A stretch of 64,000 nucleotides of DNA, taken from Aureliella helgolandensis (GTDB taxonomy: Bacteria > Planctomycetota > Planctomycetia > Pirellulales > Pirellulaceae). Made by a program: the position numbers and the translations under genes. The stretch lies in contig NZ_CP036298.1 of the NCBI RefSeq assembly GCF_007752135.1, positions 2,046,001-2,110,000 of the forward strand, read 5' to 3'. Numbering within the stretch: position 1 is the stretch's first letter; the number at the start of each line of letters is the position of its first letter. Under the pieces are notes generated by a model that saw nothing but the letters and a program-made list of their open reading frames with translations, had not been told where the DNA came from and did not search any database. Positions 1,644 to 23,987 of this stretch are shown one piece after another.

Positions 1644-3020
1644 GTGTGCCATCATCCGTTTGATTCGTTCCGCTGTCGAGTCCAACATGCGCGCCAACAC
1701 GGCGATCTTTACTTCGCCGCCTTGATCTCCAAAGAGACTATCGCGTCAGTCTTTGGCAATGCAAGTGCCATTCTCGATTCGGCCAGAGTTTACAACACAT
1801 CGGTCACGCTGTGGGTCTTCCTCTCGCAAGTCATGAGCATCCACCACGGCTGCGTCTCTGCGGTCGCCAAGCTGATCACCCATCGAGTCGCCAACAACCA
1901 AACTGCTTGCTCTGCCGAAACCGGTGCTTACTGCATTGCTCGAGACAAAATCGACGAGCAATCCATGCAACGTCTTGTGACGGCCAGCGGACTTGCGATT
2001 GAAGACAGCAGTCCCGACCATTGGCGATGGCTGGGGCACCGCGTGATCACCGCCGATGGTGCCACCGTCACGATGGCAGACACGTCGGAGAATCAAGCCG
2101 CCTACCCGCAACTTAGTAGTCAAGCACCCGGTTGTGGATTTCCGATCTTGCGAGTCGTTGTACTGTTCGCGTTGTCGACTGGCGTTGTGCTCGACATGGC
2201 GATGGGCCGATACAAAGGTAAGTTCACTCACGAAGTAAGTTTGTTTCGTCAGATCGACGCAATCATCGAAGAAACCGATGTTTTCCTAGCTGATCGCGCC
2301 TATGCGGGTTGGTTCGAGATGGCGAGGATGATTCAACGTGGTGCACACGTCGTTGTTCGCAAACACCAGTTGCGCAAGTCAGATTTTCGGACTGGAATTC
2401 GTTACGGCAAAGACGATCACTCCATCCAAATCGACAAGCCAGCTCGTCCCGACTGGATGAGCATTGAAGAGTACGAGACGTACCCGGACTTCATCACCAT
2501 TCGCGAGATCCGTATCCGAGTTGAGAACAACGGATTTCGCACTCGCGAGATTATCGTTCACACATCGCTGTCGGACGATACGGAGTACACGAGGGAGGAC
2601 ATCGCGGCCCTGTTCCGTAGAAGGTGGCAAGCAGAACTTCATTTACGGAGCTTGAAAACGGTCATGCAGATGGAACACTTGCGCTGTAAAAAGCCGCATC
2701 GAGTGCGGAACGAAATTCGGACGCACATGTTGGCTTACAATTTGATTCGCGGGGTGATGTCTGAAGCGGCCGTCGAAGGCGACGTTCAACCTTGGCATAT
2801 CAGTTTCAAGTCAACACTGACAACGGTGACGGATATGCTTCCGGTTCTAGGCCTAATCAGCAACGCCGATGAATTATGCACGGTGTTGTACCGCTGCTGC
2901 TTGCAACACGCAGTTGGCAATCGACCGGACCGCTACGAGCCCAGGGTGCTCAAGCGAAGACCGAAGAAATACAAGCTGATGCAAAAGCCAAGAAGCGAAT
3001 ACAAACCCGGGGAGGCATAG
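1644..3020 (+). CDS. IS4-family DDE transposase
   Basis: A 458-residue transposase filling the IS. The DDE triad can be read as D138 in ADGAT, D217 in LADRAYAGWFE and E331 in FRRRWQAELHLRSLK. The last block fits the IS4 signature Y-(2)-R-(3)-E-(6)-K with Phe replacing Tyr. The frame is uninterrupted from a GTG at 1644 to the stop 62 bp inside the right inverted repeat, so it is probably functional. The basic C-terminus (LKRRPKKYKLMQKPRSEYK) is typical of DNA-binding tails. It catalyses cut-and-paste movement of the element. Confidence 0.92.
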   Translation: MCHHPFDSFRCRVQHARQHGDLYFAALISKETIASVFGNASAILDSARVYNTSVTLWVFLSQVMSIHHGCVSAVAKLITHRVANNQTACSAETGAYCIARDKIDEQSMQRLVTASGLAIEDSSPDHWRWLGHRVITADGATVTMADTSENQAAYPQLSSQAPGCGFPILRVVVLFALSTGVVLDMAMGRYKGKFTHEVSLFRQIDAIIEETDVFLADRAYAGWFEMARMIQRGAHVVVRKHQLRKSDFRTGIRYGKDDHSIQIDKPARPDWMSIEEYETYPDFITIREIRIRVENNGFRTREIIVHTSLSDDTEYTREDIAALFRRRWQAELHLRSLKTVMQMEHLRCKKPHRVRNEIRTHMLAYNLIRGVMSEAAVEGDVQPWHISFKSTLTTVTDMLPVLGLISNADELCTVLYRCCLQHAVGNRPDRYEPRVLKRRPKKYKLMQKPRSEYKPGEA

Positions 3021-3082: not shown

Positions 3083-4764
<1,682 letters not shown>

Positions 4765-6167: not shown

Positions 6168-6847
6168 GGCTCGGTGGTTGGTTCTGCACTGAGCCGAAGG
6201 ATGCCCATCGGAGATTTGTGGATGCAACCAGCCGTGCACACGCAGGCCTCCGGTGTTCCGCCGATCCCCGCCTGCTTGGACGCGAATGACAACGACTGGC
6301 TCGATAGCCGATTGGAAGGCTAACTTTCAGTCTGGTGCTGCGGAGTGTTTTTTCGCAGCACTAGCGGCCTGTTGCATTCTGCAGTGCTTCTTGCGACTCG
6401 CGTTTTACAGCGTTTCCAGATTGTGCTTGGAAACCCTCGTTCGTCGCGACTGTCGCAGCTAAGCAGGCGTCCGTCTTGTAGATCGAAGTTTGCGAGAGGA
6501 AACTTGTGTGGCATGGCCCCTGCCGGTGCGGGCTGTTGATTTAAATCGCAATTTGAATTTTAATGCGGAGGTGGCGTCCTTAATTGCCTTGTAGTGGAGG
6601 TTATCTTTCCTTGCTCACGCGGCGGGTTACTATTTCAACAGCCCGGGTGGGAGAGGGCCATTGCAGCTTGTAGGTTCGACGCCTTGCTGCCTACCTTAGG
6701 CCAAGCAGCCCTCGCGGTGGAAGAACCGGTGGCTCTAGCACCCCTGCTTTTTAAGAGCGATCAAGTTCGCGACGTAGGGAACCACTGGGAAAGCTACTCT
6801 CCAGGCCGGTACCACACCGACCTGGGCATTCGACATCGGATTGATGT
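6168..6847. other. Intergenic region with one mobile-element copy
   Basis: No convincing gene is present between the MFS transporter and the convergent secreted-protein gene. The stretch contains a weak hairpin directly after the transporter stop (GGCTCGGTG and CACTGAGCC, 6168-6195, no T-run) and the 117-bp inverted-repeat element at 6529-6645. The short overlapping frames here show no family features. Confidence 0.6.
6529..6645 (+). mobile_element. Short non-autonomous inverted-repeat element, single copy
   Basis: A 117-bp element that starts with CGGGCTGTTGA (6529-6539) and ends with its exact complement TCAACAGCCCG (6635-6645). The four bases outside both ends are identical: GGTG at 6525-6528 and GGTG at 6646-6649, as expected for a target-site duplication. 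The interior matches the 89-bp unit of the array near 3.3 kb, followed by the ACGCGGCGGGTTACTATTTC end module. It encodes nothing. Same-orientation relative of the array; the copy at 23833-23947 is inverted. Confidence 0.82.
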
Positions 6848-10942: not shown

Positions 10943-11362
10943 TCCCCACTGCACCCACGATTGTGATTCCACGAAGGACTTACCCCACACGGAGGAGGAG
11001 CATGACGATTGTACACTTCGGGGACGAGCAGTGGTGGACGATGGGACGCCTGTGGGTTGAATCGTCGGGACGGGCCGGTGGGCGGTGGCGATTGTGGGTT
11101 GGTGAATCGACCGCGCGAAACTGCTGTTCACTTTTACTCGGCTGAGGTTGCCCTTGCACATACTGCAGGGCTCTCGAGGAGCCGAGCCGCACGCGGCACT
11201 CCGTAGCTTTGCGATGAGGCAATTCCGTTTACCCTCGCAGAGGTTCAGAGAAAAATTGTTCATTCTCAGAAATTAGCATTGGGAGCCGCCGAGCATGCCC
11301 ACTACTCAGGCAACTTCCGTTGCTGGCCTGCCCAGTATTCTGGCAGATTCCGGTTCGGAAAA
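10943..11362. other. Intergenic region, no gene recognised
   Basis: This gap lies between the STAS gene and the hydrolase, both minus strand. The hydrolase frame is open through part of it, but without protein-like composition. No RNA or repeat was seen. Confidence 0.45.
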
Positions 11363-11674
11363 TCAAACCGTCTGCGGGCTGCGCACTTCGATCAAACGAT
11401 ACAAACGCGTGATTTCCAATATCTCGGCAACAGCCTTCTGCGCATTTTCCAGCACCAGTCGTCGGTCTGTTGCACACAATTGCAAATGCAATCGCACGAT
11501 CTCACCAACGTCGGCGCTATTGATTTTTTCAACGGAAGACAGGTCCACCACCACTTCTGGGCATAGCTCACGCCGTGCCGTGTCTCGCACGCTGTTGAGT
11601 TGATCGAGCAGGGTAACGGCTGGAATGGAAGGTTCTAGTGTTGCGGTTCGGTTGCGGCGTAGTTGGAATTGCAT
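11363..11674 (-). CDS. STAS-domain protein (anti-anti-sigma-like)
   Basis: A 103-residue protein consisting of one STAS domain: VVVDLSSVEKINSADVGEIVRLH carries the conserved turn where anti-anti-sigma factors have the phosphorylatable Ser, here followed by Ala-Asp. The start was set at ATG 11674 because GGAGG lies six bases upstream; ATG 11680 and the open frame to 11833 are less well placed. Such proteins bind anti-sigma kinases or tether to transporters. No partner kinase, phosphatase or sigma factor is adjacent. Cytoplasmic, function inferred from fold only. Confidence 0.75.
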   Translation of the reverse strand: MQFQLRRNRTATLEPSIPAVTLLDQLNSVRDTARRELCPEVVVDLSSVEKINSADVGEIVRLHLQLCATDRRLVLENAQKAVAEILEITRLYRLIEVRSPQTV

Positions 11675-12717
11675 CTTCATCCTCCGTATAGACAAATTAA
11701 GAGCCGTGCATTGGGAATGCACGTCGTGTGCCACAGCGTTCTGCTCCGGTTGCTGCATGCCCTCCCGCCGTCGGATACTGGGGGTGGCCGGACGAAAACA
11801 CCTTTTGCACTGGCTTGTTGATTTACAGGGCATTTTTCATCTTTTTAAGTGGAGGTCGTCCCTTGATTGTCGAGTACCGACAGCCACTTTGCCTTGCCCG
11901 CGTGCGGATCGATTGGAAAGAGGTTTCAGTTTTAGTTTGAGTGGTAGCATCGACGATCCACCTCTAGTGGCAATCACTCTCCCTGTCTCACGCTGCGGGG
12001 TGCGATCGCAAGGTGGCGTTGGGTGGCTAGAGCTGAATGCAGCATGTCGGAACGCTTTGCACCGGGCCACTCCCAGGCGATGCGGGGGGACCGAATGCGT
12101 CGAGCAGGCAGGATAAACTTGTTTTATTCAGACCGTGGCTCACGGCCCCTAGGGAAGCAGAAGTGAAGCAAGAAGTTTGCCCGAAGCAGCGCAGTACCCC
12201 GGCATAGCCGTCCCCACTCTGGCAGGCTGCTGAAACCCCAAGCACATCACAGTAGAGTGGTACGGAGTGCTGGTCTCTGGCGGTCGTGGACGGCCAGGTT
12301 GTTACGAATCGCGGACTAAGGGGGACATGCCGTGCGATGCCACTCGGTTAACAGGCAACAAGCGAACGCTACGCGCTCCGCTCCCGAGTCGCCGAGCTTC
12401 CTGAAGCCACATGCAGGCGGGGTGCTGGGGGGCCCTCAATGCGGTCTTTGGTTCCGCCGGGACGCGACACACAGCGAAGGCTGCGTCACCAGACATGGGG
12501 TTGAAGTAGGGCACAAGCCACCCGAACGGTTGCTGTTGGCATGGCCAAACCCCCAGCCGCATCGCTCTCCGGTGGGTGAATAATCGAGGATCAAACTAGA
12601 CGATTTTCAGAAACCGGTTAACATTACGTGCGGATGCAGGTTGCTGGCGGAGCTGGTGACCTGCCCGCCAGAAACGCTGTTCTTTTACACTTCGCTACTT
12701 GAGCCCCCGACCTGCTG
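11675..12717. other. Long intergenic region with a decayed repeat
   Basis: About 1 kb without a credible gene. The left part (11811-11993) shows two diverged units related to the 89-bp repeat family. From 12.0 to 12.7 kb the small frames on both strands overlap one another and show no protein family or Shine-Dalgarno support. The last 50 bases should include the nusB promoter. Confidence 0.5.
11811..11993 (+). repeat. Probable decayed copy of the 89-bp repeat family
   Basis: TGGCTTGTTGATTTA at 11811 followed by AGTGGAGGTCGTCCCTTGAT matches the start and middle of the 89-bp unit. About 90 bases later GTTTCAGTTTTAGTTTGAG, GTGGTAGCAT and CTAGTGGCAA match a second unit, then CTCACGCTGCGG matches the start of the end module. 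The 3' terminal repeat and a convincing target duplication are not visible, so this looks like an old two-unit relic. Confidence 0.55.
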
Positions 12718-23574: not shown

Positions 23575-23987
23575 GTTTAGATACCGCTGCAGGAACAAAA
23601 TGGTTGCAAGAAAAGAAGCGTGGGCCAATCAGAAGCTGCCTGTACGGCCCATCCGCTAGACAGCTAAACCACGCGCAACCCGACAAGTTTTGACTTGCTG
23701 CTGTATTTTTTGAGAAACCCAGCGGATTCCCCAGTGCCCATCCACTGCTGAACAGCGGAGGTGGCAGCTAAACACGCAATGCTTGTCGCAGCACTCCGCG
23801 TATGCCAGCAAGGGCCAGCTCATGCAGCGAGACGGGCTGTTGAAATATTAACCCCCGCGTCAGCAAGGGTAGGTGGTCTCCACTACAGGGCGGTTAGGGG
23901 TGCTACCTGCAGGTGAAAACTTAAGACGCTATTAAATCAGCAGCCCGGAGAGTCTCGGGCCACCAGGATGTCGGGAACCGGGGGCGT
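23575..23987. other. Intergenic region with one inverted mobile-element copy
   Basis: The stretch between the propeller gene and the beta-barrel gene contains the 115-bp element at 23833-23947. The rest has no recognised gene; an upstream promoter for the propeller gene is expected on the right side of its start. Confidence 0.5.
23833..23947 (-). mobile_element. Short non-autonomous inverted-repeat element, single copy in reverse orientation
   Basis: Begins CGGGCTGTTGA (23833-23843) and ends TCAGCAGCCCG (23937-23947), one mismatch from a perfect inverted repeat. The flanks are GAGA at 23829-23832 and GAGA at 23948-23951, an exact 4-bp duplication. Read on the minus strand, the interior matches the 6529-6645 element and the 89-bp unit at 3419-3507 (GATTTAATAGCGTCTT, GCAGGTAGCACCCCTAA, GCCCTGTAGTGG). 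Confidence 0.82.

Follow-up and report, generated by a model that had tools for sequence, protein, structure and literature searches.

The window examined here, a stretch of 64,000 nucleotides, spans positions 2,046,001–2,110,000 of the host chromosome, a single contig of 8,439,957 bp (8.44 Mb). It contains two single copies of a short MITE: a 117-bp copy on the forward strand (6529–6645), with ends CGGGCTGTTGA...TCAACAGCCCG and the target duplication GGTG on its left (6525–6528) and right (6646–6649), and a 115-bp copy on the reverse strand (23833–23947), bounded by GAGA on its left (23829–23832) and right (23948–23951). An earlier sequence-only reading had described both with these lengths, flanks, and opposite orientations, and both were borne out. 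The 6529–6645 copy includes an empty, target-like internal site on the same strand (6605–6628, with TCAC at 6615–6618), which was located from the family consensus and given window coordinates by eye. Two degenerate matches from a profile search, both on the forward strand within 11813–12011, are probably decayed copies. The window also contains an insertion sequence (IS) at 1644–3020, which encodes an IS4-family transposase (NF033592, 187.6 bits) and belongs to a group of 11 genome loci, its own included.

A third interval on the forward strand, at 3154–3631, had been read as another copy of 115–117 bp. Its outer duplication is real (GTGA at 3150–3153 on the left and 3632–3635 on the right), but the interval itself is a 478-bp nest of four levels, in which four left arms spaced 89 bp apart stand in a row and are followed by four right arms (order L1 L2 L3 L4 R4 R3 R2 R1). 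The left arms of copy 1 (outermost; 3154–3242), copy 2 (3243–3331), and copy 3 (3332–3420) each end in TCAC; copy 4, the innermost, is complete at 116 bp (3421–3536). The right arms of copies 3 and 2 follow at 3541–3568 and 3573–3599, each after a TTAC (3537–3540 and 3569–3572, respectively), and that of copy 1 at 3604–3631, after a TCAC (3600–3603) that exactly duplicates 3239–3242. The inner duplication is therefore exact for copy 2 (TCAC/TCAC), and matches at 3 of 4 bases for copies 3 and 4 (TCAC vs. TTAC). Inner arms score above those of their hosts in two of the three steps, the innermost step being the opposite (85.5 vs. 82.5). The sequence-only reading was correct as to the family nature of these elements; what it overlooked is their habit of inserting into their own copies.

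The abundance of the family across the genome is far beyond chance. The left end GGGCTGTTGATTTAA, searched as a 15-mer with at most 2 mismatches, occurs at 181 places, as compared with 9 for the reversed control, and a right-end 24-mer (at most 3 mismatches) occurs at 178, as compared with 0; in the window alone, the 11-base end (at most 2 mismatches) gives a weak excess (37 vs. a shuffle mean of 23, the largest shuffle also reaching 37). Copies were sampled from 80 stretches holding 90 of 100 left-end places (of the 181), together with 400 kb of contiguous sequence; the window holds two more. Because selection was by exact left-end 15-mer, this sample favors young copies. Profile searches over the 710 kb of sample and window returned 224 matches, some of them twice where the contiguous stretch overlaps three others, and the 93 near-full rows, which include three repeats, correspond to 90 distinct copies. 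The consensus of 76 aligned copies is 116 bp long (66 of the 76 have exactly this length; range 115–120) and has terminal inverted repeats CGGGCTGTTGA / TCAACAGCCCG. At less than 300 bp, the element is too short for a transposase gene. A neighbor at 99% identity or above exists for 12 of the 76 copies, and movement may therefore be recent.

Good ends were available for 81 insertions (the 90 copies minus 9 with degraded ends or short flanks). The 4-bp duplication is exact in 47 of these, matches at 3 of 4 bases in 16, and is found in neither form in 18; among the 16 insertions without an element-like flank, 13 have an exact duplication. A parse based on arms gave exact duplications in 54 of 137 cases, as compared with 5.0% when flanks were randomly re-paired; boundaries are less sharp where arms have decayed, which makes these counts weaker than those based on ends. 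The genome-wide copies and their duplications support the description, first made from the window, of a MITE-like family whose inverted ends are 11 bp long and whose target duplications are 4 bp.

An empty site was likewise found in a relative at the sole copy tested, in one of the 14 relatives compared. This copy (L033) interrupts a 3-keto-disaccharide hydrolase gene, the joined frame of which matches PF06439 over positions 2–187 of 187 (E = 2.2e-32), and a genome of the same genus (G005) contains an uninterrupted homolog with 61% amino-acid identity. The protein alignment is gapless for ~50 residues before and 25 residues after the junction; the DNA alignment includes two compensating 6-base gaps near it. 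The G005 homolog could be a paralog, which leaves the empty-site reading unaffected. Overall, an ORF of at least 120 aa spans 36 of 95 joined sites; most of these appear mechanical, and L033, L035, and L063 were examined further.

In 41 of the 81 insertions, the two flanks are recognizable as parts of a single other copy, split after base 89. The inserted copy has the orientation of its host in 26 of these (duplication exact in 15, at 3 of 4 in 9, neither in 2) and the opposite orientation in 15 (exact in 11, at 3 of 4 in 4). A further 24 insertions were flagged as self on one flank, though some of these flags are spurious (e.g., L033, L063). Across 60 directly nested pairs, 41 in the same and 19 in opposite orientation, the left arm of the inner copy is closer to the family profile than that of its host in 55 (p about 1e-11); in these pairs, the inner copy is younger than its host. 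Multi-arm clusters parse as perfectly balanced nests in 58 of 105 cases; 47 do not. Outer duplications are exact in 18 and at 3 of 4 in 2 of the 40 two-arm clusters, as compared with 9 and 7 of the 64 clusters with more than two arms, so that in the latter the outer arms have often decayed or been rearranged. Some clusters in which a single left arm accompanies two right arms keep matching outer duplications (TAGT in L043, TCTC in L055, and TATC in L070), which fits arm-to-arm recombination later than nesting.

Tandem arrays of element-like units are also present (L100:584–1223 and 11071–12099; L016:1–1440; L015:1596–2623), with periods of 121, 241, 226, and 199 bp, and units in L032 are spaced 119; the values 121 and 119 approximate the element length plus 4, as though element and duplication were repeated jointly. 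These genuine arrays and the unbalanced clusters are what might be expected if the arm arrangement arose by tandem duplication and recombination of the repeat, rather than by repeated insertion at the same site. We consider such an origin very unlikely, given that nests occur in both orientations, that the duplication is exact in 26 and at 3 of 4 in 13 of the 41 self-flanked insertions, that inner copies are the younger ones, and that L043, L055, and L070 retain their outer duplications, as expected with recombination later than nesting.

The preference for base 89 has a counterpart in the target sequence. Base counts from 27 non-self sites with exact duplications give a symmetric consensus, CCCnnnGC-KNNM-GCnnnGGG, and a target matrix was built from the 18 of these sites that lie outside the element, after removal of 9 resembling element or hairpin arms. 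Applied along the element, this matrix scores 9.1 bits at bases 86–89 and −2.1 at the next best place, 11 bits lower. Scores of at least 9.1 bits occur at 104 of 463,517 background positions (the top 0.022%), 16 of them inside element copies, and the same internal place was the top choice of 3 among 200 column-permuted matrices. The motif is loose, as leave-one-out scores of the 18 sites range from 2.8 to 13.0. The preferred landing site of the family is thus part of the element itself, and new copies nest in old ones because of it. Outside copies, 88 sites score equally well, which extrapolates to about 1,600 across the genome; motif strength alone therefore does not account for half of the sampled insertions falling in self-sites, and purifying selection against gene hits is a likely second factor.

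REPIN/RAYT systems are not known to leave target duplications. That the element is a palindromic repeat of the REP/REPIN type, spread by a RAYT (HUH) transposase, is hardly credible for a family with target duplications, inverted ends, and ends common to an IS of a DDE family. The element does hold one hairpin arm, and the hairpin occurs as a free-standing, REP-like palindrome in relatives (L169–L171); moreover, folding of the RNA form is better than that of shuffled versions (z = −3.4 and −3.7), and REPs of the GTAG type have been reported in the PVC superphylum (PMC3733652). Within 464 kb of the host genome, in contrast, a 20-mer of the hairpin arm (at most 2 mismatches) had 21 matches in element arms and 4 outside them, the latter all in one array. 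The REP-like hairpins have the form AACCCGCnGCGTSAGCAAGGA...TCCTTGCTSACGCnGCGGGTT or close to it in L169–L171 (G013) and in L176–L177 (Neorhodopirellula pilleata), and one of their arms resembles the target half of the element.

Searches of the host genome for PF01609, PF05598, and IS1182 proteins identified no IS with the MITE ends. The pattern CGGGCTGTYGAS, used to query for a full-length IS, matched 16 genome places as compared with 14 in the control, and inverted end pairs 600–3500 bp apart numbered three in 464 kb, two of them between element copies and one across a tandem array. The window's own IS4-family IS was rejected as a driver, as the MITE ends were not seen as a duplication-flanked pair at any of the 11 loci in its group; the sequence-only reading had likewise judged this adjacent IS improbable in that role. 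The same pair was absent from the other PF01609 groups (470/482-aa, 461-aa, and two of six 445-aa copies), with one chance pair of MITE ends, lacking a duplication, in L118.

The only IS1182 type that these searches revealed in the host genome has a 441-aa protein, about 26% identical to that of a related genome, G223. This IS is 1532 bp long and occurs in 17 copies (L121, L123–L138) that are 99.1–99.5% identical; it inserts in the same MITE arm or in remnants of it, with GGGT following in 15 of the 17. Its near-identical copies, its use of the same element arm, its standing as the only IS1182 type found, and the possibly recent movement of the MITE would all be consistent with its mobilizing the family. 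The two nevertheless differ both in their ends and in their duplications, the IS having ends TAGGCTGTGAA and, in 15 of 17 copies, a duplication of exactly 3 bp, vs. CGGGCTGTTGA and 4 bp for the MITE, and we regard this IS as an improbable driver.

A closer match was found in other genomes. The 20-base end of the family (at most 1 mismatch) occurs in 18 of 396 genomes of the order, representing 10 of 144 genera including that of the host, and in none of the control. One genome from another genus of the same family (G323) contains a 1795-bp IS with CGGGCTGTTGATTTA at both ends, the protein of which is an IS1182-family transposase (NCBIfam NF033551, 312.5 bits; cutoff 270). All three copies found have exact 4-bp duplications and CGGGCTGTTGATTTATTC at both ends. 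At the left end, the 15 terminal bases are identical to those of the MITE (15/15); the right end shares 11. A full-length IS combining the MITE ends with 4-bp duplications, as had been envisaged from the window, therefore exists in G323; none was found in the host genome among PF01609, PF05598, and IS1182 proteins. The earlier impression that these ends have no known bacterial counterpart is superseded, as IS1182-family ISs of the same bacterial family carry them.

G223 contains both an IS1182 IS, with an exact duplication in two of four copies, and a MITE whose ends are closely similar, with the same duplication and the same target sequence. A family-wide search with the G223 transposase, in which at most 7 candidates were scored per genome, returned matches in at least 13 of 199 genomes. 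At 10 of the 18 loci, exact 4-bp duplications accompany inverted ends of the CGG type or closely similar to it (one with CAGA), a count that leaves out two fragments with chance-like ends (L279, L280); L270 and L272 have CGG-type ends without a matching duplication. In G011, of the same genus as the host, IS1182 fragments lie at or near contig ends with CTAA on either side, and these ends may stem from different copies. In a Mariniblastus MAG, an element end adjoins IS1182-like coding sequence, an arrangement we read as a deletion derivative.

Short elements with related ends are also present in relatives: among the 27 loci examined, ten elements have exact 4-bp duplications. The interiors of nine of these ten, those short enough for comparison, are as dissimilar to the present one (0.49–0.56) as are shuffles (mean 0.51, maximum 0.57), and some interiors of relatives are alike, at up to 0.62 between genomes. 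Lengths of 116–118 bp recur in several genera despite differing interiors (L208, L213, L214, L218, L221, L228, and G000); others are 127, 133, and 373 bp. A scan of wider genome contigs returned 12 stretches, of which 5 are planctomycete; those from Tenacibaculum, Vibrio, Bacillota, Bacteroidetes/Bacteroidales (2), Gammaproteobacteria, and Dehalococcoidales have weak profile scores and were taken as chance matches. In the open full-text literature, a body of work in which subscription papers are mostly uncovered, nothing on the present MITE family, on planctomycete IS1182-derived MITEs, or on self-nesting bacterial MITEs was identified among the matches listed. The MITE family is new and, judging by the identity of its ends, is best filed as a putative derivative of IS1182-type ISs.

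These ISs also bear on how the target is recognized. The transposase might respond to a hairpin structure, as has been proposed for IS1272, and duplicate its 4-base loop, rather than read a sequence motif. Three G323 copies lie at the centers of palindromes whose arms are of two sequences, CCGGCGG and CCGTTGG, and across nine IS1182 sites (excluding the third G323 copy), complementarity peaks at the duplication, with 4.56 of 9 pairs as compared with 1.67–3.33 at shifted centers. Six of the nine sites are nevertheless poor palindromes (2–4 of 9 pairs), and in the host genome the non-conserved positions 3–5 from the duplication pair in 8, 3, and 9 of 27 sites, near chance, so that a symmetric sequence motif is enough there. 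Recognition of a structure seems to us rather doubtful.

Nesting is not confined to the host genome. Two nests in G354, from another genus, have exact inner duplications: TTGC, around an inner element of 250 bp, and GCTA. Both nests are located in hairpin-arm sites. Under the host-genome matrix, five of ten relative elements, from three genera, have an internal site that exceeds 9.1 bits, with a maximum of 16.9, and the other five reach 4.2–5.9. The relatives' own flanking targets score poorly under this matrix (−12.5 to 4.8); target preference therefore differs between lineages. The internal sites suggest that the theme of a carried target may recur in relatives. More tentatively, and with somewhat less than even confidence, we propose that IS1182-driven MITEs of the Pirellulaceae repeatedly took up the target palindrome of the transposase as cargo—a safe landing pad that would channel insertions into existing copies—and that, in this clade, IS1182 transposases duplicate the central 4 bases of palindromes.

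For the host genome itself, we think it very probable that the family is a ~116-bp non-autonomous MITE, mobilized in trans by a DDE transposase of the IS1182 family, with a 4-bp duplication at a dyad-symmetric site and self-targeting through its internal target. The transposase would recognize CGGGCTGTTGATTTA ends, act in trans on the MITE, and insert it at CCCnnnGC-KNNM-GCnnnGGG with a 4-bp target duplication. Element bases 76–99, of which 86–89 (TCAC) are duplicated, would present a strong example of this target, such that every copy could serve as a landing pad for the next and give rise to nests in both orientations; recombination between repeated arms would later trim them. The IS1182 identity of the transposase is inferred from the identical ends, duplication length, and target style of ISs in relatives, and we likewise infer its action in trans, the trimming of nests by recombination, and the loss of the driver from the host genome since.

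The family is a clear example from nature of a mini-transposon in bacteria that brings its target along, its spread being largely redirected into older copies; such self-targeting would offer a simple route to high copy number with little gene damage. Nests record the order of insertion and single copies are ready-made empty sites, and the target choice of IS1182 is therefore directly testable. The 20-base end, in turn, links short repeats with differing interiors across the 10 of 144 genera of the order.

Like other bacterial MITEs, the element is too short to hold a transposase; it is bounded by terminal inverted repeats and target duplications, is present in many copies, and shares its ends with a full IS from its own bacterial family. 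What is unusual is that its target is part of its own sequence and that it nests in itself, one site within another copy accounting for about half of the copies sampled; a further difference is that searches of its genome for PF01609, PF05598, and IS1182 proteins revealed no full IS to match. The IS1182 family (NF033551) shares with it the 15 terminal bases of the G323 IS, 4-bp duplications, and dyad-symmetric targets; unlike the family's ISs, the element has no transposase gene, and no resemblance to the interior of the IS was noticed. IS1272, which others have placed in the IS1182 family, likewise uses inverted-repeat targets; as reported by Wan et al. (2017; PMC5678879), it replaces these targets and leaves no duplication, one of them has a 4-bp intervening region, and a hypothetical pathway c is sketched that duplicates only the loop. 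The present family, in contrast to such stem–loop replacement, keeps its target on both sides and duplicates the 4-bp center, comparable to pathway c as outlined there, and the three G323 palindrome sites with a central duplication look like the same loop-duplicating pathway. Finally, ISs that target REP sequences are known (Tobes and Pareja 2006; PMC1525189) and resemble the present family in inserting into a repeated palindrome; here, by contrast, the target is itself part of the mobile element.
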